Source: Thermosyntropha sp.
Lineage (GTDB): Bacteria > Bacillota > Syntrophomonadia > Syntrophomonadales > Syntrophomonadaceae
NCBI RefSeq assembly: GCF_017656155.1
Contig: NZ_JACDOH010000005.1
Coordinates: forward strand, 1-64,000
DNA: 64,000 nt
Direction: 5' to 3'
Below the pieces are notes generated by a model. The model did no database searches. It was not told where the DNA came from and saw nothing but the letters and a program-made list of their open reading frames with translations. Position 1 is the first letter of the stretch. Every line of letters starts with the position of its first letter. The position numbers and the translations under genes were made by a program. Shown here in pieces: positions 21,468 to 47,036 of the stretch.

Positions 21468-22529
21468 TTAAATTGTCATAAAATAGTCAAAAACATACGC
21501 GGTATCCGTAGGCCCCGGAGCCCCTTCCGGATGAAATTGCACTGTAAAATACGGATAATATCTATGTTTTAAACCTTCCACCGTTTTATCGTTCAATTCC
21601 TCAAACCATATTTTCCATCCCAATTCAGCAAGCAAACCTCTATCTACAGCATATCCGTGATTTTGGGCAGTAACAAAACACCTGCCGCTTTCTAAATCTT
21701 TAACAGTGTGATTTCCCCCTCTGTGTCCAAACTTCATTTTATAAGTATTCGCCCCCGTGCTTAAAGCTAAAACCTGATGTCCCAAACAAATGCCAAGAAT
21801 GGGAATATAATTTGGTATCTTTTGCAGTTCTCTTTGGACATAATTCAAAACTTTAGGATTCCCAGGCCCATTAGATAAAATAATTTTATCCGGGACAAAC
21901 TCCATAACTTCTTCTGCTTTAGTCCATGCCGGGACTACTATTACTGTGCAGTCATAATCGAAAAGTTTGTTTATAATACTCTTTTTTACGCCCAAATCCC
22001 AAACTACAACTTTTTGTTTACCATTACCATAAATCATCTTCTTATCTATGCTTACCTTACGCGGCAAATCCTCATCCAGCATCTTTTTACTGTTGGCAGC
22101 CCTTTCTCTTACTTTTTCAATTGACTCAACCTTAGAACATATAACTCCTCCCATGCTGCCTTCTGTACGCAAAATCCGAGTAAGCATTCTGGTATCAATT
22201 CCCCGGATGCAGGCAACGTCATATTCTCTTAAAAATTGCTCCATGTTCCACTTGCTCTGATAATGTCCCGTAAGTTCGGCAAAATCATATAAAACAATTC
22301 CATTAACAGCCGGTTTCTCATATTCAAAATCATATTCATTAAAACCATAATTGCCAATCTGAGGATAAGTAAAAACCAGTATCTGTCCGGCATAAGAAGG
22401 ATCAGTTATTATTTCCTGATAACCATTCATGCTGGTATTGAATACTATTTCCCCCTCCGCTTCACTTCCGCTTACAAGCTCTCCTTTGAAGACAAAACCG
22501 TTTTCTAATACTAAATATCCTTCTTTCAT
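21468..22529 (-). CDS. carA: Carbamoyl-phosphate synthase small (glutaminase) subunit
   Basis: CarA (353 residues) hydrolyses glutamine and passes ammonia to the CarB synthetase subunit. The N-terminal CPSase domain includes FNTSMNGYQEIITDPSY. The C-terminal class I glutamine amidotransferase triad is visible: Cys in LGICLGHQVLA, and His/Glu in YFTVQFHPEGAPGP. It is the last gene of the split glutamate synthase operon, 15 bases after the GXGXG-domain gene, and carB is not in the window. That placement couples this glutamine-using enzyme to nitrogen assimilation genes rather than to pyrimidine or arginine genes. Confidence 0.95.
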   Translation of the reverse strand: MKEGYLVLENGFVFKGELVSGSEAEGEIVFNTSMNGYQEIITDPSYAGQILVFTYPQIGNYGFNEYDFEYEKPAVNGIVLYDFAELTGHYQSKWNMEQFLREYDVACIRGIDTRMLTRILRTEGSMGGVICSKVESIEKVRERAANSKKMLDEDLPRKVSIDKKMIYGNGKQKVVVWDLGVKKSIINKLFDYDCTVIVVPAWTKAEEVMEFVPDKIILSNGPGNPKVLNYVQRELQKIPNYIPILGICLGHQVLALSTGANTYKMKFGHRGGNHTVKDLESGRCFVTAQNHGYAVDRGLLAELGWKIWFEELNDKTVEGLKHRYYPYFTVQFHPEGAPGPTDTAYVFDYFMTI

Positions 22530-22544
22530 AAAACTACCCTCACT

Positions 22545-23270
22545 TTAAATTCCAGCATATAATTTTTTATAAGGTCTGTTTCCAGTGCTTATTATCTTAT
22601 TAAACTCATCAATTTTTACATTTTCTAAATTAATTTCAAACAAACTTTTATATACCTCTAAATGAAATGTCAAAACCTCTTTATCCCTTTCCCCTAAAGA
22701 TTCAACTCTTACATCCCGCCCAACCTCAACATTTCCTCTCATATAAATGACTCCTCCATGCATACCGCTGGCGCAAAAATACCCAGCTGGCCGCCAAGCA
22801 TCCTGCCGGTTAATAAGTATTATAATTCCTCCAGCCATATATTCCCCTAAAAAATCTCCGGCAGTCCCTCCTATAACCAAAACCGGTTTTTTTTCTCCGA
22901 ATTCTTTCATATGCACACCTGCTCTATACCCTACATTATCTCTAACATACACACTGCCACCACGCATACCGTAACATATAATATCTCCGGCACTTCCGTA
23001 TACTGCCAAAGCCCCCCCATTCATAGTATTGGCAGCTCCATCCTGAACATTGCCATAAACCCTGATAAAAGGCCCGTCCATAAAGATGCCCAAATCATTC
23101 CCCGGCACCCCGTTGATTACAATGTCGAAATCACCTTCCAAACCCGCTGCAATATACCGCTGCCCGTTAACATTATTTATAACCGCGTTTTTGTCAGAGC
23201 TCAAAGCCTCTTTAATCATACCGTTAAGTTGGCGAAAATGTTTCTTATCACCATCTATAAAAACAGCCAT
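22545..23270 (-). CDS. Glutamate synthase GXGXG-domain subunit (GltB3-like)
   Basis: A stand-alone version of the C-terminal right-handed beta-helix domain of the large glutamate synthase subunit, about 241 residues. Regular G-XX-G-XXX-G turns are visible from residue 55 on (VYGNVQDGAANTMNGG, YGMRGGSVYVRDNVG, GGTAGDFLGEYMAGG, SGMHGGVIYMRGNV). In archaeal-type split GOGAT this domain is a separate protein that assembles with the FMN core. Its ATG overlaps the preceding stop codon (TGATG); a TTG one codon earlier is less likely. It contributes structure rather than catalysis. Confidence 0.88.
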   Translation of the reverse strand: MAVFIDGDKKHFRQLNGMIKEALSSDKNAVINNVNGQRYIAAGLEGDFDIVINGVPGNDLGIFMDGPFIRVYGNVQDGAANTMNGGALAVYGSAGDIICYGMRGGSVYVRDNVGYRAGVHMKEFGEKKPVLVIGGTAGDFLGEYMAGGIIILINRQDAWRPAGYFCASGMHGGVIYMRGNVEVGRDVRVESLGERDKEVLTFHLEVYKSLFEINLENVKIDEFNKIISTGNRPYKKLYAGI

Positions 23271-24535
23271 CAATAAGTCCCCCCCTTAAACCCGGCTTCT
23301 GCTCTTCCAAGGAGCCTCCATGAAATTTCCGGAGATAATATACTCTGTTTAAAATCTGTGATCTTGATTTTTTTCTCAATTAAATAACGATATATTCCAC
23401 ATCGGTAAATATCTCCTATCAAAACAGTCCCAACAAGAACATCATCTTTTAATATAAATTTTTTATAGTTAAATTCCCCTCTAAACTCCTCTATAATTTC
23501 TGAATCCCTGTCGTCACAATTACTAAGACCGGCAGTAACAATATTTAAACCTAAAAGAGGAATGGAATTAAAAGCAATACTTCCTCTATATCTGACATTT
23601 TCACCTGCCATATTCGCGCCGGCAATCCTTCCTTGGATATAAGCATTAGGTAATATGGGAACAACTTTCTTTTCCCCAGAAATAATTTCATAAGCCTGGG
23701 CAACATCACCGGCTGCATATATTCCATCTATAGAAGTTTGCAAATACTCGTCAACTAAAATACCTTTATCAACTTTTAAATTCTTAAGGTTAAGCCAGGC
23801 ATAATTAGGTTTTATACCAGCAGCAGCTATAACCATATCACATTCTAAAATCGTTCCATCGCTCAATATAAGCCGCTCAAGCTTATCTTCTCCCTCTTTT
23901 TCTTCCACTATATTCTGTATAAATATGCTGATTCCACGCCTTTTTAGATAATTTTCAACTATATTTCCAGCCTTCAAATCCAAAATAGAATTTAACAAAC
24001 AATCCCCTGCTTCCACTACTGCAACATCCTGTCCTCTAAAAAACATACTCTCAGCTGCTTTAAGTCCTACTAATCCTCCCCCTATTATTGCAACATTTTG
24101 CCTTTTGCCCGCTTTTTTTAAAAAGTCATCTATTTTTTTTACATCATCAAAACTATGAAACAAAAAAACATTATCATAACCACCATTCAAAAAATCAGGA
24201 ACAACAGGTTTTCCTCCAGTAGCAATCAGCAATTTGTCATAATGAATTTGCTCTGAACCTGGTTCAATCCATACAATTTTTGTTTCCGGATTTATTTGAA
24301 CATTGCTTTGCCCTGTATGCAAGGCTACCCCATTCTGGACATAAAAATTTTTATCCCGATAATATATGTTTTTTTCAATAATTTTCCCACTTAAATAATA
24401 AGAAATCAGAGGACGTGAGTAAGCTTCATAAACTTCGTCAGAGATTATTATTATTTCCCCTTGTTTGTCTATTTCCCTTATTCCTTCTACCGCTCCAATG
24501 GCTGCTGTTGAATTACCTATTATTACATAACGCAT
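23270..24535 (-). CDS. FAD/NAD(P)-dependent oxidoreductase of the glutamate synthase operon
   Basis: A 421-residue pyridine nucleotide-disulfide-type oxidoreductase. The FAD site is at the N-terminus (YVIIGNSTAAIGAV), the NAD(P) site is VAIIGGGLVGLKAAE at about residue 150, and the second FAD motif is DGIYAAGDVAQAYE at about 270. It resembles NADH oxidase/nitrite reductase-like flavoproteins. Between the polyferredoxin and the GXGXG gene, it probably feeds electrons from NAD(P)H through the ferredoxin subunit to the glutamate synthase core. This is inferred from the operon; the donor is not determined. Confidence 0.85.
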   Translation of the reverse strand: MRYVIIGNSTAAIGAVEGIREIDKQGEIIIISDEVYEAYSRPLISYYLSGKIIEKNIYYRDKNFYVQNGVALHTGQSNVQINPETKIVWIEPGSEQIHYDKLLIATGGKPVVPDFLNGGYDNVFLFHSFDDVKKIDDFLKKAGKRQNVAIIGGGLVGLKAAESMFFRGQDVAVVEAGDCLLNSILDLKAGNIVENYLKRRGISIFIQNIVEEKEGEDKLERLILSDGTILECDMVIAAAGIKPNYAWLNLKNLKVDKGILVDEYLQTSIDGIYAAGDVAQAYEIISGEKKVVPILPNAYIQGRIAGANMAGENVRYRGSIAFNSIPLLGLNIVTAGLSNCDDRDSEIIEEFRGEFNYKKFILKDDVLVGTVLIGDIYRCGIYRYLIEKKIKITDFKQSILSPEISWRLLGRAEAGFKGGTY

Positions 24536-24537
24536 AA

Positions 24538-24987
24538 TTATTCCTCCCCATACCTTAAAGCCTCATTTGGACAATGCTCAACACATTGGGGCATATCAAA
24601 GCTATCCTTACATAAATCACATTTCAAAGGCAGAGATCGGCCGTTTTCACTCCCTTCCCTTATAAAACCATAGGGACAGGCTATTACACAGGTAAAACAT
24701 CCTACACATCTTTCTTTATCAACTTTCACCACCCCCGTTCGGTTATCTTTAAACATAGCTCCACTTATACACGAATACACGCATAAAGGTTCATCACAAT
24801 GCCTACACATCAAAGAATAAGAATTGCCTTCTTCTTCCTCAATAAATAACCGGGGAACAGGTTTTAAGGACGATAATTTAAATGCCTTAAGTAGGTCTTT
24901 CGGATATTCTGAATGGGCAGCTGCACAATAAACCATGCAAGTTCCACAACCTATGCAAAAATCTTCTATCACATAAACTTTTTTCAT
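24538..24987 (-). CDS. 4Fe-4S polyferredoxin subunit (DmsB/HycB-like)
   Basis: A 149-residue protein with four cysteine groups for [4Fe-4S] clusters: CIGCGTCMVYC, CRHCDEPLCVYSC, CVGCFTCVIACP and CDLCKDSFDMPQCVEHCP. The pattern is that of electron-transfer subunits such as DmsB. The ATG at 24987 is chosen because AGGAGG precedes it at nine bases; a longer frame to 25008 overlaps the upstream gene. It most likely wires the FAD oxidoreductase to the FMN/Fe-S glutamate synthase core in the same operon. Confidence 0.88.
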   Translation of the reverse strand: MKKVYVIEDFCIGCGTCMVYCAAAHSEYPKDLLKAFKLSSLKPVPRLFIEEEEGNSYSLMCRHCDEPLCVYSCISGAMFKDNRTGVVKVDKERCVGCFTCVIACPYGFIREGSENGRSLPLKCDLCKDSFDMPQCVEHCPNEALRYGEE

Positions 24988-25000
24988 ATAACAAAACCTC

Positions 25001-26500
25001 CTATTCACCTGCTGCCTTTATGCCTAAAATTTCAAGCTCTTTCTTATTAAGCCCTATCCCCCTTAACATTAGCCTGTTTCCCCTAAGGCTTTCTATTGCA
25101 TTTATCCCCATACCTCCCAGCATTTCCTTGATTTCATGTTGCCAAGCAGTAAGGAGATTAACCAATTTACGCGCTCCAATTTCCGGATTAAGCCTTTTTA
25201 CCAATTTCGGATCCTGGGTAGCAATTCCCCAGTTGCATTTTCCGGTATAACATTTCTGGCACATGTGACAGCCAAGTGCAATAAGAGCAGCCGTTCCAAT
25301 ATACACAGCATCAGCTCCTAAAGCAACAGCCTTAACTATATCTGAACTGTTGCGAATACTTCCAGCAACCACAATAGAAACCTCGTTTCTTATCCCTTCC
25401 TCTCTTAAACGCTGATCTACTGCAGCTAAAGCAAATTCAATCGGAATTCCCACATTATCGCGTATAGCCTGTGGAGCTGCACCAGTTCCACCCCGGAAAC
25501 CATCAATAACGATAATATCTGCACCTGCCCTGGCAATTCCTGAAGCAATAGCCGCAATATTATGAACAGCCGCAACTTTAACTGCTACCGGTTTTTTATA
25601 ATCAGTAGCTTCTTTTATAGCAAAAATAAGCTGTTTTAAATCTTCAATCGAATAAATATCATGATGAGGAGCAGGAGATATAGCATCGCTGCCTACAGGT
25701 ATCATACGGGTATCAGCCACCTCCTGACCTACCTTTTCACCCGGAAGGTGTCCTCCTATGCCAGGTTTTGCTCCCTGTCCTATCTTTATTTCCACCGCTG
25801 CAGCCTCTTTCAGCATTGCAGGATTAACTCCAAACCTTCCGGAAGCTACTTGAACTATAGTGTGGTTCATACTCTTCTTTAAGTCAGCATGCACTCCCCC
25901 TTCTCCCGCGTTCCAATAAGTTCCCATAGTTTCAGCCGCTCGTGCTAGAGCCTTATGAACATTAAGACTGACCGACCCGAAAGACATAGCTGAAAACATC
26001 ACGGGCAAATCCAGCTCCAGCCAGGGAAATATATCATCTTTAAATACCTCATCTTTTTCATTTAACGCCGACTTACGCCCCAAAAAAACTTTTAGCTCTA
26101 TAGGCTCTCTTAAAGGATCAATTGAAGGATTAGTTACTTGCGAAGCATTCAAAACCATTTTATCCCAATAAACCGGATACGGCCGGTCATTACCCATTCC
26201 AGTCAACAAAACCCCACCACTTTGGGCTTGGCGATAAATATTCTTAATGTGTCTGTTTTCCCAATTGGCATTAAAAGTAAAATCATTAGCGTTCTTTCTT
26301 ATAGATAAGGCGCCGGTAGGACAAAAAACTACACATCGATGACAATTTACGCAGTATTTATCATCACTTATTATCATTTGCCAATCTTCATCCCATCTGT
26401 GCACATTATTAGCACATTGATTGACACATATTTTACAACCTATACACTTTGCCTCATTGCGTAAAACTTCATATTCCTGCATGACTAAATTTATCCCCAT
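25001..26500 (-). CDS. Glutamate synthase FMN-binding core, archaeal type, with N-terminal ferredoxin domain (GltB2-like)
   Basis: A 499-residue protein. An N-terminal two-cluster ferredoxin domain (CIGCKICVNQC and CVNCHRCVVFCP, residues 18-60) is fused to the glutamate synthase FMN-binding TIM barrel. The barrel has the signatures MSFGSVSLN, GEGGVH, KPGIGGHLPGEKV, VIDGFRGGTGAAP and the cysteines in ALGCHMCQKCYTGKC, which likely bind a [3Fe-4S]-type cluster. It makes glutamate from 2-oxoglutarate and ammonia channelled from the glutaminase protein encoded upstream. The central domain is separate from the glutaminase and GXGXG domains, unlike bacterial GltB. Confidence 0.93.
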   Translation of the reverse strand: MGINLVMQEYEVLRNEAKCIGCKICVNQCANNVHRWDEDWQMIISDDKYCVNCHRCVVFCPTGALSIRKNANDFTFNANWENRHIKNIYRQAQSGGVLLTGMGNDRPYPVYWDKMVLNASQVTNPSIDPLREPIELKVFLGRKSALNEKDEVFKDDIFPWLELDLPVMFSAMSFGSVSLNVHKALARAAETMGTYWNAGEGGVHADLKKSMNHTIVQVASGRFGVNPAMLKEAAAVEIKIGQGAKPGIGGHLPGEKVGQEVADTRMIPVGSDAISPAPHHDIYSIEDLKQLIFAIKEATDYKKPVAVKVAAVHNIAAIASGIARAGADIIVIDGFRGGTGAAPQAIRDNVGIPIEFALAAVDQRLREEGIRNEVSIVVAGSIRNSSDIVKAVALGADAVYIGTAALIALGCHMCQKCYTGKCNWGIATQDPKLVKRLNPEIGARKLVNLLTAWQHEIKEMLGGMGINAIESLRGNRLMLRGIGLNKKELEILGIKAAGE

Positions 26501-26543: not shown

Positions 26544-27662
26544 TTAATTTGCTTCATCCTGTTTTAGGAAAATATCGTCTGCCCCTTCCAGCAAAGCTAT
26601 AACCGGTTCTCCTCCCCGCGGAGCCCATATTCTTTCTAACTTTTCCCTTGCTACTCTTCTTATCGCTGCCTCCTCACTTGCTACATAAAGCCTGCTTCCC
26701 TCCTCTGCAGCTACCAAGGAACGCAATTTTATACGATCATTTAAGGCCATCATCCCATTGCTTGCCGACAATATTATGGAAAAAGGTCCATTAAGCAAAA
26801 GACTTCCATAAGTGCCTCTAAGCCGCCTCAATTTTTCCCGGTTTTTCTGGTCTTTTTCAGCTATTTGCTCCCATAAAGGCGGAGCCACAACTGCAGCAGC
26901 TTTTTCGATGGAAAGGTTATTTTTGCGAATTAGAAAGTCGAAAATATAAGTTATTACCTCTGTATCCGTCTGTAAAGTACATTCATACTCATACATTTCT
27001 ATAAACCTTCGGTTGGCATCATAAGAAGAAATTTCACCATTGTGAACAACCGACCAGTCCAAAAGATTAAACGGATGAGCTCCGCCCCACCATCCCGGAG
27101 TATTGGTGGGAAAGCGACCGTGCGCAGTCCACAAGTAACCTTTATACTCGTCAAGACGATAAAACTCTCCGGCATCCTCCGGATAAGCTACTGCCTTAAA
27201 AACCCCCATATTTTTACCGCTGGAAAAAACATAAGCCCCTTTAATAGTCTTATTGATTTTCATAACCGCCTGTACCATAAATTCATCTTCACTCATACCT
27301 GCTTCCATCAGCTTTTGTTCTTTTGCTCTTACAAAATATCTCCATATCTGGGGAGGTTTTTTTACTGTTTTTACCTTTCGCAAAGGCATCGCTTCGGTCA
27401 TACCCACCTTAAGATTGCAATTAAGAAAATCTTCTGTTTTCTGGCGCGCTCCTTTATCATCAAAGAAAATATGCAGAGCATAACAATCTTCATAACCTGG
27501 ATATATACCATAAGCAGCAAAGCCTCCACCTAAACCATTGGATCTTTCATGCATAACCGCAATAGATTCAATAATATCAGTTCCAGAAAACATCTCTCTT
27601 TTTCTATCTATAATTCCAGCTATAGCACATCCAGACGAAATCCTTACCTTACCTTCGTTCAT
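26544..27662 (-). CDS. Glutamate synthase class II glutaminase subunit (GltB1-like)
   Basis: A 372-residue class II glutamine amidotransferase. The nucleophile Cys is at position 12 (SSGCAIAGIIDRKR), so an 11-residue propeptide must be removed to expose it, as in GltB and PurF-like enzymes. Further landmarks are WTAHGRFPTNTPGWWGGAHPFNLL and VVHNGEISSYDANR, the usual glutamine-binding segments. It releases ammonia for the FMN core encoded next. The gene opens the GOGAT operon behind a predicted ANTAR-controlled attenuator. GGAGGG precedes the ATG. Confidence 0.92.
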   Translation of the reverse strand: MNEGKVRISSGCAIAGIIDRKREMFSGTDIIESIAVMHERSNGLGGGFAAYGIYPGYEDCYALHIFFDDKGARQKTEDFLNCNLKVGMTEAMPLRKVKTVKKPPQIWRYFVRAKEQKLMEAGMSEDEFMVQAVMKINKTIKGAYVFSSGKNMGVFKAVAYPEDAGEFYRLDEYKGYLWTAHGRFPTNTPGWWGGAHPFNLLDWSVVHNGEISSYDANRRFIEMYEYECTLQTDTEVITYIFDFLIRKNNLSIEKAAAVVAPPLWEQIAEKDQKNREKLRRLRGTYGSLLLNGPFSIILSASNGMMALNDRIKLRSLVAAEEGSRLYVASEEAAIRRVAREKLERIWAPRGGEPVIALLEGADDIFLKQDEAN

Positions 27663-27680: not shown

Positions 27681-27775
27681 AAAAAAGCCCTTAGCCCCAG
27701 ATAAACTGGTGCTAAGGACTTCTTTGTCCCATAAAAATATTATTTTAGAATAGCAATTCGATGCACCTTTGCATC
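27681..27775 (-). promoter_or_regulatory. ANTAR-type antitermination leader of the glutamate synthase operon
   Basis: In transcript order, hairpin P1 has stem GATGC/GCATC with loop AAAGGU (27760-27775). A linker of about 30 bases follows. Hairpin P2 has stem GGAC/GUCC with loop AAAGAA (27716-27729). Then comes a terminator with stem AGTCCTTAGC-CCAG against CTGG-GCTAAGGGCT and a six-T tail (27681-27720). Both loops are hexanucleotides with A at position 1 and G at position 4, the known ANTAR recognition feature. The 3' arm of P2 is also the start of the terminator stem, so P2 and the terminator are mutually exclusive. Confidence 0.8.
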
Positions 27776-27791
27776 TTTTATCTTTATTCTA

Positions 27792-27821
27792 ATTTTATGC
27801 CTTCTTTAGCTGGAAAAGCAA
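27792..27821 (-). promoter_or_regulatory. Probable promoter of the glutamate synthase operon
   Basis: On the minus strand TTGCTT (27816-27821) and TAAAAT (27792-27797) are spaced by 18 bases. Transcription would start near 27786, placing the P1 hairpin about ten bases into the RNA and giving a leader of roughly 125 bases. Confidence 0.45.
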
Positions 27822-27862
27822 TACTGACAAAAAAGATATAATGTATACATTCTGCAGCAAAT

Positions 27863-27899
27863 AAAAAGTCTTTTATCTGTTCAACCAGACAAAAGACTT
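27863..27899 (-). terminator. Terminator after amtB
   Basis: The arms at 27866-27879 and 27886-27899 form a 14-bp stem (one G-U on the RNA) with a six-base loop. On the minus strand it is followed by TTTTTATTTG. It ends the glnA-to-amtB run before the promoter of the glutamate synthase operon. Confidence 0.88.
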
Positions 27900-29273: not shown

Positions 29274-29371
29274 GATAAAAACGGCACTTACCTGTTGTGG
29301 TAAGCGCCTTTGCTTTCACTTATTTAAATTTGATTCAATTCTGAGAACAACCTAAAGAGCACTGTCTCCTC
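29274..29371 (-). promoter_or_regulatory. ANTAR-type attenuator between glnK and amtB
   Basis: P1, inside the last codons of glnK, has stem GAGGAG/CUCUUU (two G-U pairs) with loop ACAGUG (29354-29371). P2 has stem AAGC/GCUU with loop AAAGGC (29302-29315). A terminator follows: GGCGCTTACC/GGTAAGTGCC with loop ACAACA and then GTTTTTATC (29274-29308). Both small loops have A1 and G4. P2 shares its loop end and 3' arm with the terminator's 5' arm, so they exclude each other. The hairpin separates amtB from glnK. Confidence 0.7.
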
Positions 29372-31712: not shown

Positions 31713-33047
31713 TTAAAATCTGATTAAATATTGCTTTAACTCCCAGGGAGTTACCTGCATATTATACTCCTGCCACTCCTGCATACGCCCTTCTACCATT
31801 TTTTCATAAATATGCTCTCCCAATGCACTTTTTATCACTTCGTCTTTCTCTAATTCCTGGAGAGCTTCCAGAAGGCTTCCCGGCAAACTCTGGATATTCA
31901 AGGCCTTCCTCTCTTCTTCATCCATTATATATATATTTCGATCAACCGGTTCAGGAGGTTCTATCTTGTTTACTACTCCATCTAACCCTGCCTTTAATAA
32001 AGCAGCCATAGCCAAATATGGATTACAGCTGGGATCAGGATTTCTAACTTCAATGCGGGTACTCATACCTCTTTTAGCTGGAACCCGAACAAGACAACTG
32101 CGGTTTTTCCCCGACCATGCTATATAAACAGGGGCTTCATAACCAGGCACTAATCTCTTATAAGAGTTAATAGTAGGGTTAGTTACCGCGCAAAGAGCAC
32201 GGGCATGTTTTAATATCCCTCCTATAAAATAGCGCGCAGTTTCACTTAAACCATCCGGATCACCTGGATCATAAAAGGTATTATTTCCATCTTTAAAGAG
32301 AGAAATATGAGTATGCATACCCGAACCGTTAACCCCATAAACAGGTTTAGGCATAAAAGAGGCATACAGCCCGTGTCTCTGGGCAATAGATCGGACAGTT
32401 AGTTTAAAGGTCATTATAGCATCAGCAATTTTAAGAGCATCAGCATACTTAAAATCAATCTCATGTTGACCTGGAGCTACTTCATGATGAGAAGCCTCAA
32501 TTTCAAAACCCATCTCCTCCAATGTCAAATCCATGTCCCGCCTTGCATTTTCACCCAAGTCCATTGGTGCTAAATCAAAATAACCTGCCTCATCCTGAGT
32601 GCGGGTAGTTGCTTTTCCCTCTTCGTCTGCCAAGAACAGGAAAAACTCCGCTTCTGGTCCTACATTCATCACATATCCTAAATCATTAGCTTCTTTTAAA
32701 ATCCTCTTCAGGTTATTGCGCGGGCAGCCAGCAAAAGGAGTTCCATCTGGATTTCCCACATCACATATAAGTCTTGCTACCCTTCCATTAGAACCACTGC
32801 GCCAGGGGAAAAGCACAAAGGTATCAGGATCAGGGAAAAGATACATATCAGATTCAGAAATATCTGCAAAACCATTTATAGAAGATCCGTCAAACATAAT
32901 CTCTCCATCTAAAGCCTTCTTAAGCTGGCCTACCGGAATCGCAACATTTTTCAATATCCCTGAAATATCAGTAAACTGCAACCTTAAAAACCTCACATCA
33001 TATTCCTTAACCTTTTCCAAAATAATCTCCTTTTGAACTTCAGTCAT
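31713..33047 (-). CDS. glnA: Glutamine synthetase type I
   Basis: At 444 residues this is the short GlnA form typical of Firmicutes (GSI-alpha). Active-site segments include [30 protein letters not shown], the metal/glutamate region [10 protein letters not shown] and the ATP-binding [22 protein letters not shown]. The adenylylation Tyr loop of the beta type is not present. The ATG at 33047 is used: AAGGAGG precedes it, and the gene then starts 13 bases after the ANTAR regulator gene, forming a two-gene unit. A longer frame to 33077 overlaps that gene. Confidence 0.96.
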
Positions 33048-33060
33048 ATTTTCTTCCTCC

Positions 33061-33627
33061 TTATTGTTTTTTTTCATTAGCCAAAATCAACATGCGTGCA
33101 ATTTCACGCTTTGCCACCCCGTGATTCATACTTTCTCTTTGCAGCCAGCGATGGGCTTGGTCTTCATCCATGTCATATTTTTTCATAAGAATTCCTTTAG
33201 CTTTTTCCACCAGCTGGCGTGTTTTTAGCTCTTCTCTTAAGCGATCAATCTCTTTCTTAGCTGCATTTATTTTGTTTTGATAATAAAAAGAGACCTCAAC
33301 TACAGCTAAAAGCACATCCGGATTTATAGGTCTAATAATATGCGGATAATCCTGCGCAAAACATGTGGCATCATTATTTCTGGTTATAAATATTACTGAA
33401 CCCAAATTATCCCCCTCAATAATACCTGCTATTTCCTTCACATTACCCCCTTCAAGTTTAGAATCAATGATAACCAGGTCAGGATATAGGCTGCGGCATA
33501 CCCGCAAAAGCTCAAAAGTATTAATTGCCTCTGCCTGAACCTTAAAGCCTCCACAAATCAGTACATCTTTTATAAAATTGCGGCTCAATTGATTACTATC
33601 GCCAATCACAATGCTCCCTTCATCCAA
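33061..33627 (-). CDS. ANTAR-domain RNA-binding response regulator (NitR/NasT-like), antiterminator
   Basis: About 188 residues. The N-terminal receiver-like domain retains the phospho-acceptor Asp in [11 protein letters not shown] and the VIFITR segment, but the conserved Lys of the switch site is Arg (IIRPINPD). A coiled-coil follows ([21 protein letters not shown]), then an ANTAR domain ([39 protein letters not shown]). ANTAR proteins bind paired hexaloop hairpins in leader RNA and prevent terminator formation. Three such elements lie downstream in this cluster. A TTG start at 33627 with AGAGGTG eight bases before it is preferred; the ATG at 33663 lacks a good site. It is followed directly by glnA. 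Whether it is phosphorylated or senses a ligand is open; no partner kinase is adjacent. Confidence 0.9.
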
Positions 33628-33722
33628 AAATCTTTCACCTCTCTTCGGGGAAGCTACACCCATTTAAATATTTAAAACCTTGTGAACAAGCAACTCTTCA
33701 ACTTATATGGCCTTTTATTTCC

Positions 33723-33777
33723 AAAAAAAAGGGGCCACGGTATAAAGCCTTTCGACTGGCTTTACCCGGGTCCCCTT
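33723..33777 (-). terminator. Large terminator-like hairpin ahead of the ANTAR-glnA unit
   Basis: On the minus strand AAGGGG...CCCCTT closes an interrupted stem that includes GTAAAGCC/GGCTTTAT around a short loop, and eight T follow. It is 65 bases upstream of the ATG at 33663 and 150 after the prsA stop. It could end prsA transcription or act as a leader attenuator of ANTAR-glnA. No A1/G4 hexaloop was found overlapping it. Confidence 0.7.
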
Positions 33778-33944
33778 CGCCCTGACCAATTATTTTGTTT
33801 ACAATTTTATTTTAATCAATATATTTTAAAAAACAATATTTTAACCTGCAATATATTGTATACTTTAGAAATTCAGGTTATCTTTTGTTCAATACAGATT
33901 AATATCCGTAATATTAGCTGCATTCATGAGGACAATAAAAAATT

Positions 33945-38675: not shown

Positions 38676-38763
38676 AAAATCCCCCCCATTTAATAATTTT
38701 AAATATAATTCTTAAGCCTTTTATTTCAATTGTAAATACTCAAACAACAAATTATACTGTATA

Positions 38764-38803
38764 CCTAATATTTATTAAAAAAAGCCGGCCTAATATTTAT
38801 TAA
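38764..38803. repeat. 15-bp direct repeat upstream of nfnA
   Basis: CCTAATATTTATTAA occurs at 38764-38778 and again at 38789-38803, a 25-base period, about 90-130 bases upstream of the nfnA start. Spacing close to two helical turns is compatible with a tandem regulator site. Confidence 0.55.
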
Positions 38804-46685: not shown

Positions 46686-47023
46686 GTAAGCAAATCAGAT
46701 AGTCGCGGGTAATAATTACCTGAGGAAAGTCGGAGCTCCACAGGGCAGGGTGCTGGATAACATCCAGTGGGGGCGACCCTAAGGAAAGTGCCACAGAAAC
46801 AAACCGCCTCTCAAAAAAGAGGTAAGGGTGGAAAGGTGAGGTAAGAGCTCACCAGCGTTTAGGCGACTAAACGGCTAGGCAAACCCCACCCGGAGCAAGA
46901 CCGAATAGGGGAACTATGAAGTGGCCCGCTTCGTTCCCGGGTTAGGTCGCTTGAGGTGTCAGGCAACTGGCATCCCAGATAGATGACTATCTAATACAGA
47001 ACTCCGCTTATAGATTTGCTTAC
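46686..47023 (+). ncRNA. rnpB: RNase P RNA (bacterial type A)
   Basis: The catalytic RNA of RNase P, which matures tRNA 5' ends. P1 is an 11-bp helix: GTAAGCAAATC (46686-46696) with GATTTGCTTAC (47013-47023). The universally conserved blocks are present: GAGGAAAGTC followed by GGAGCTCC near the 5' end, CCACAGAAAC, and ACAGAACTCCGCTTAT near the 3' end. The GGAG and CTCC segments covary to keep the P4/P2 helices. The overall arrangement is that of type A, as in many clostridial lineages rather than Bacillus type B. A terminator follows. Confidence 0.96.
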
Positions 47024-47036
47024 TAAAAAAATCAGC

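Follow-up and report, generated by a model that had tools for sequence, protein, structure and literature searches.

We propose that the window, that is, the whole 64,000-nucleotide stretch of DNA analysed here, carries a dual-hexaloop ANTAR antitermination leader in front of an operon encoding a split glutamate synthase and carA. Judged from the sequence, we give this reading, together with the mechanism outlined below, a probability of about 85%. The original prediction had taken the leader in the same sense, and this is borne out by a lone ANTAR gene in the same cluster, nine conserved leaders, compensatory changes in the first hairpin (P1) and the published dual-hairpin architecture.

Architecture of the leader and its surroundings

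The promoter elements and the ribosome binding site were read from the letters themselves, P1 from sequence and conservation. In the direction of transcription the parts are:

27836-27848, minus strand: GTATACATTATAT box (GTATAC box), a putative regulator binding site that starts exactly 27 nt before the TTG of the -35 element
27821-27816, minus strand: -35 element TTGCTT
27797-27792, minus strand: -10 element TAAAAT, after an 18-nt spacer
about 27785, minus strand: predicted transcription start
27775-27760, minus strand: P1 hairpin GATGC-AAAGGT-GCATC, loop with A1 and G4
27759-27731, minus strand: linker between P1 and the second hairpin (P2), 29 nt
27730-27715, minus strand: P2 hairpin GGGAC-AAAGAA-GTCCT, loop with A1 and G4, its 3' arm also forming the first part of the terminator
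stem 27720-27686 and T tract 27686-27681, minus strand: intrinsic terminator, mutually exclusive with P2
27668-27675, minus strand: ribosome binding site GAGGAGGG, ATG at 27662

Every part named in the original prediction is present: the TTGCTT-18-TAAAAT promoter (also conserved in relatives), P1 as GATGC/GCATC with loop AAAGGU, P2 with loop AAAGAA, a terminator with 14 of 15 positions paired and six T, and the double use of GUCC by P2 and the terminator. The first hairpin was expected about ten bases past the predicted start and begins 10 nt 3' of it; that transcription starts upstream of P1 agrees with relatives, where promoter and start position are conserved. The summary that the leader has all the expected parts holds for these elements but overlooks the linker, which at 29 nt is longer than EutV tolerates. 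The GTATAC box 27 nt ahead of the -35 element had likewise been missed.

Both hairpins have at least 3 pairs and an A1/G4 loop of six nucleotides. P2 runs into an intrinsic terminator of the same direction, GUCC being common to P2 and the 5' arm of the terminator. The terminator stem contains a single A.G mismatch, and its outermost A-U pair takes the first of the six T. According to RNAfold, the terminator (-25.4 kcal/mol) wins over P2 (-5.6 kcal/mol) when both can form, while P1 and P2 precede it in growing-chain folding. The 110-nt leader folds 6.3 standard deviations better than its dinucleotide shuffles (z -6.3).

The leader precedes a six-gene operon that reaches from the split gltB to carA, down to 21468. 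Its five downstream genes (21468-26500) form an apparent operon, in which reading frames overlap or lie no more than 43 nt apart. The first two genes were assigned with Pfam and the others by inspection of the proteins:

26544-27662, minus strand: glutamine amidotransferase part of the split glutamate synthase, first gene (Pfam GATase_2)
25001-26500, minus strand: glutamate synthase core
24538-25008, minus strand: ferredoxin-like protein
23270-24535, minus strand: pyridine nucleotide oxidoreductase
22545-23273, minus strand: third glutamate synthase domain (GXGXG)
21468-22529, minus strand: carA
27866-27899, minus strand: terminator of amtB, upstream of the leader, 14 pairs
29283-29371, minus strand: glnK-amtB sister site with P1-like hairpin, P2 and terminator

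The amtB terminator that was said to lie ahead of the leader was thus located at 27899-27866. At the glnK-amtB site, the P1-like hairpin GAGGAG-ACAGTG-CTCTTT (29371-29354) covers the stop codon of glnK and is followed by P2 (AAGC-AAAGGC-GCTT, 29315-29302) and the terminator (29308-29283). This pair is a possible internal attenuator; a similar pair of hairpins occupies the glnK-amtB position near position 691 of L216. On the plus strand of the window, Rfam placed a class A RNase P RNA at 46687-47026 (320 bits).

We then compared these structures with random expectation. On both strands of the 64-kb window, the combination of dual ANNGNN hairpins and an overlapping terminator is found 2 times, namely at the gltB leader and at glnK-amtB, versus 1 in total on both strands of 20 dinucleotide-shuffled windows. 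Single hexaloops overlapping a terminator are not rarer in shuffled sequence (3 in the window versus 1-6 per shuffled window), so structure alone lends no support to a single-hairpin site. That the leader consists of chance hairpins beside an ordinary terminator could draw on this latter result. It is nevertheless a very improbable explanation, since the dual arrangement turned up in only 1 of the 20 shuffled windows and is conserved across families with covariation.

Conservation of hairpins and promoter

From six leaders we built a covariance model, with which we searched the genome itself and 63 genomes of the order. Within its own genome it hit this site only (E 1e-11; next hit 3.9), and eight of the 63 genomes yielded hits, nine sites altogether. 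Each of the nine lies before a glutamate synthase gene, whether of the split type, of the full-length type or for the small subunit. Three of them (in G040, in G031 and the second site of G043) lie outside the training set of the model, and in G031 and at the second G043 site the P1 stem is rebuilt with other bases (GGCAC/GTGCC and GGTAC/GTGCC). Over the nine leaders both stems pair throughout, and 3 of the 5 P1 pairs show changes on both sides. The covariation score was reached by 1 of 500 shuffles, a figure that serves as a guide rather than a probability because nine leaders are few and related. P1 has A1 and G4 in 9/9 loops, P2 has G4 in 9/9 and A1 in 7/9. One relative's leader (L225 of G038) shows both hairpins but no T tract. 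The exact P1-P2 pattern matched this site only among 398 genomes of the phylum, a pattern too strict to inform. A genome of the same genus (G001, 99% complete) yielded no ANTAR protein and lacked this gltB as well, so that presence of the cluster may vary within the genus.

The promoter of the gltB leader fits the consensus at 8/12 positions and is absent from the list of our promoter scan, yet it is backed by relatives, in which TTG and TANNNT are conserved at an unchanged distance from the box. Among the boxes listed, 13 of 16 have the GTATACANTAT box starting exactly 27 nt before the TTG of the -35 element. The composite promoter of box, -35 and -10 was present in 27 of 61 genomes, versus 2 hits for the reversed pattern, and sits mostly at nitrogen genes. 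Within the window it occurs at two places, the gltB leader and the ANTAR-glnA genes; elsewhere, the genes behind it include ANTAR-glnA, carA, glnK, glutamate synthase, a nifH-like gene, purC and glutamate dehydrogenase, names that come from reading protein starts rather than from family searches.

An activator bound with its centre near -60 would fit the constant distance of 27 nt. From the sequence pattern, the GTATAC box is likely to be bound by a DNA-binding regulator, and initiation is probably also controlled by such a factor. As the box is found in ANTAR-less genomes too, this factor is not the ANTAR protein. A literature search for a GTATAC nitrogen box found no paper. Upstream of the ANTAR gene, some genomes (L043, L045 and L053) lack the GTATAC box and have a TTCCACNATGCGGAA-like palindrome near the promoter instead. 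A further site in the window, GTATACAGTATA at 38753-38764 (minus strand), stands before an oxidoreductase gene (38675-37833, minus strand); it was rejected as the same element, having neither a TTG at 27 nt nor a hexaloop leader.

The 57 composite promoters also gave access to sister leaders. Hairpins and terminators were called by RNA folding, as a strict bulge-free terminator finder had missed most leaders; in the hairpin search the first loop position could be A or G and G4 was required, but A2 and the closing C-G pair were left free. In ANTAR-bearing genomes, a hexaloop hairpin overlapping a terminator followed 43 of the 53 composite promoters, versus none of the 4 in ANTAR-less genomes (P=0.0025 by Fisher's test, a generous value given that sites from one genome are not independent) and 0 of 285 shuffled leaders. 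A test on carA leaders that made no use of the box gave hexaloop plus terminator in 8/20 cases with an ANTAR gene and 0/9 without (P=0.03). Over 45 leader hairpins, equivalent to P2, none of 500 shuffles equalled the stem covariation; since pairing was a selection criterion for these 45, the evidence comes from two-sided changes rather than from pairing as such. A2 is kept in 43/45 and the closing C-G pair in 42/45.

These data bear on the possibility that the leader is a plain attenuator, or is read by another RNA-binding protein or a small molecule, with the nearby ANTAR gene a coincidence. We regard this as improbable: from genome to genome, the presence of hexaloop leaders goes with that of the ANTAR gene, the loops follow the pattern of established ANTAR targets, and Rfam, at gathering as well as relaxed thresholds, gave no relevant family match to the leader. 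What speaks for such a switch is that the ANTAR protein is only predicted to bind the leader and has a degenerate receiver.

Single-hexaloop terminator leaders stand before carA, glnK and ANTAR-glnA in several loci (L151, L203, L218, L165, L061 and others). In the composite-promoter set, P1 is confined to glutamate synthase leaders and one nifH-like leader, and many single hexaloops begin 9-27 nt past the predicted start, so close that P1 would hardly fit or not fit at all. Our literature search, which fell short of most subscription journals, found no report of single-hexaloop terminator leaders.

ANTAR protein, linker and proposed mechanism

The candidate regulator and its own leader lie in the same nitrogen cluster:

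33061-33663, minus strand: gene of the ANTAR protein (degenerate receiver plus ANTAR domain), overlapping glnA at 31713-33077
33723-33863, minus strand: promoter and leader of ANTAR-glnA, with the same composite promoter, the GTATAC box at 33851-33863 and a transcription start expected at about 33802

This is the single ANTAR gene found in the genome (E 2e-21), about 5 kb upstream of the gltB leader. The protein is related to EutV (E 7e-23) and Rv1626. In its receiver, GDSN replaces VDDE and the conserved Lys is changed to Arg, while the phospho-acceptor Asp is kept; the Response_reg score of 22.6 is below the Pfam cut-off of 30.2. The protein thus lacks the full set of acidic pair, Asp and Lys of a phosphorylated REC-ANTAR response regulator, which makes phosphorylation by a kinase doubtful, and no kinase gene adjoins the ANTAR gene. 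Receivers of relatives are degenerate too, each in different ways. Of the RNA-contact residues of EutV, Arg142 and Met172-Asn173 are kept, whereas Arg168, Arg175, Arg177 and Tyr164 are changed to Gln, Gly, Ala and His, respectively.

The leader of ANTAR-glnA contains a degenerate single hairpin (GGGC-GAAGGG-GACC, 33782-33769) with a G.A mismatch, embedded in a long terminator with a T tract reaching to 33723. In relatives the hairpin is intact, sometimes with G for A at loop position 1. Apart from one in G047, no canonical P1 was found in ANTAR-glnA leaders.

The linker of the gltB leader is unusually long for this class of RNA. Across the nine leaders it ranges from 14 to 33 nt, counting a 5-pair P1 and a 4-pair P2, by which count the present linker has 30 nt. 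The linkers of eut leaders measure 5-12 nt, and a linker of 14 nt causes a drastic drop in EutV induction (Ramesh 2012 PMC3369931; Walshe 2022 PMC8934654); with 20 nt added, antitermination by EutV was lost in vitro (Walshe 2022 PMC8934654). The published definition of ANTAR targets calls the linker 'variable' (Ramesh 2012 PMC3369931), so that 29 nt fall within this wording but outside the measured ranges that we found (5-12 nt for eut, 2-25 nt for actinobacteria). Growing-chain folding placed two small hairpins inside the linker. Linker folding as a bridge between P1 and P2 is not supported, because no linker was clearly more folded than its own shuffles. With a long linker that is not compacted, the present ANTAR protein would be expected either to cope with a wider gap or to handle P1 in another way.

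One might suppose that P2 alone is the working ANTAR site and that P1 is an accessory that tunes glutamate synthase leaders, linker length hardly mattering. Nearly all sister leaders have a single hexaloop, often 9-27 nt from the start, orthologous linkers span 14-33 nt, and EutV binds single hexaloops (Walshe 2022 PMC8934654). However, P1 is kept with A1, G4 and compensatory stem changes in 9/9 glutamate synthase leaders, which places it under selection, and deletion of P1 abolishes induction with EutV (Ramesh 2012 PMC3369931; Walshe 2022 PMC8934654). We consider a sole role of P2 possible, though rather unlikely.

Under the dual-hexaloop reading, RNA polymerase would start about 10 nt ahead of P1. 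When no active ANTAR protein is at hand, P1 would form, the GUCC of P2 would be captured by the more stable terminator, and transcription would end at the T tract. When nitrogen assimilation is needed, the ANTAR protein encoded with glnA would bind the emerging P1, move on to P2 and keep it closed, so that the terminator is blocked. Readthrough would then raise glutamate synthase and carA under nitrogen shortage. The sequence elements, the way in which they are conserved and covary, and the tie to ANTAR-bearing genomes are established; for protein binding, the order of events, the direction of control and the nitrogen signal we argue by analogy with EutV, NasR and AmiR, and it is in this sense that we infer the nitrogen source to be the signal. 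The points that weigh against the reading are the long linker without compacting structure, the changed EutV contacts, the degenerate receiver, the G038 leader lacking a T tract and the small size of the ANTAR-less group.

Comparison with known ANTAR systems

The eutP leader of Enterococcus faecalis with its regulator EutV (PMC3369931; PMC8934654) resembles the present case in having two A1/G4 hexaloops, a P2 over an intrinsic terminator and a receiver-ANTAR regulator. Here, in contrast, the linker has 29 nt instead of 5-12 nt, the receiver is degenerate, no kinase gene adjoins, the promoter has a GTATAC box and the leader serves nitrogen assimilation. Closer in target genes are the ANTAR targets predicted in two species of Desulfotomaculum, for D. 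reducens at glutamate synthase genes and for D. acetoxidans within a large nitrogen regulon (Ramesh 2012 PMC3369931). RNA class and targets (glutamate synthase, P-II, ammonium transporter and glutamine synthetase) are alike; compared by the published description, those predictions required two hairpins, whereas most sister leaders here have one. Actinobacterial ANTAR RNAs (PMC8164766) share the dual hexaloop motif, with curated linkers of 2-25 nt. Unlike the leader described here, few of them overlap a terminator and many lie over ribosome binding sites.

The leader is thus a well-supported addition to an already known class, the glutamate synthase ANTAR leaders (Ramesh 2012). What may be new is the mixed architecture of the regulon, with long linkers and single hexaloops. 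It is about an even bet that Syntrophomonadaceae and relatives use one ANTAR protein with a degenerate receiver for a nitrogen regulon of mostly single-hexaloop leaders, a second hexaloop, at most 33 nt away, being present only in glutamate synthase leaders, and all behind the same promoters with a putative activator site. The fixed GTATAC box would point to an additional nitrogen regulator.

Work on EutV found that antitermination needs two hexaloops and a tight linker, and called for further work on the role of single-hexaloop motifs (Walshe 2022 PMC8934654). If true, the mixed regulon would break both EutV rules, the need for two hexaloops and that for a short linker. Since natural leaders with one hexaloop and with two hexaloops 29 nt apart coexist in genomes most of which encode just one ANTAR protein, the question raised by EutV becomes directly testable.
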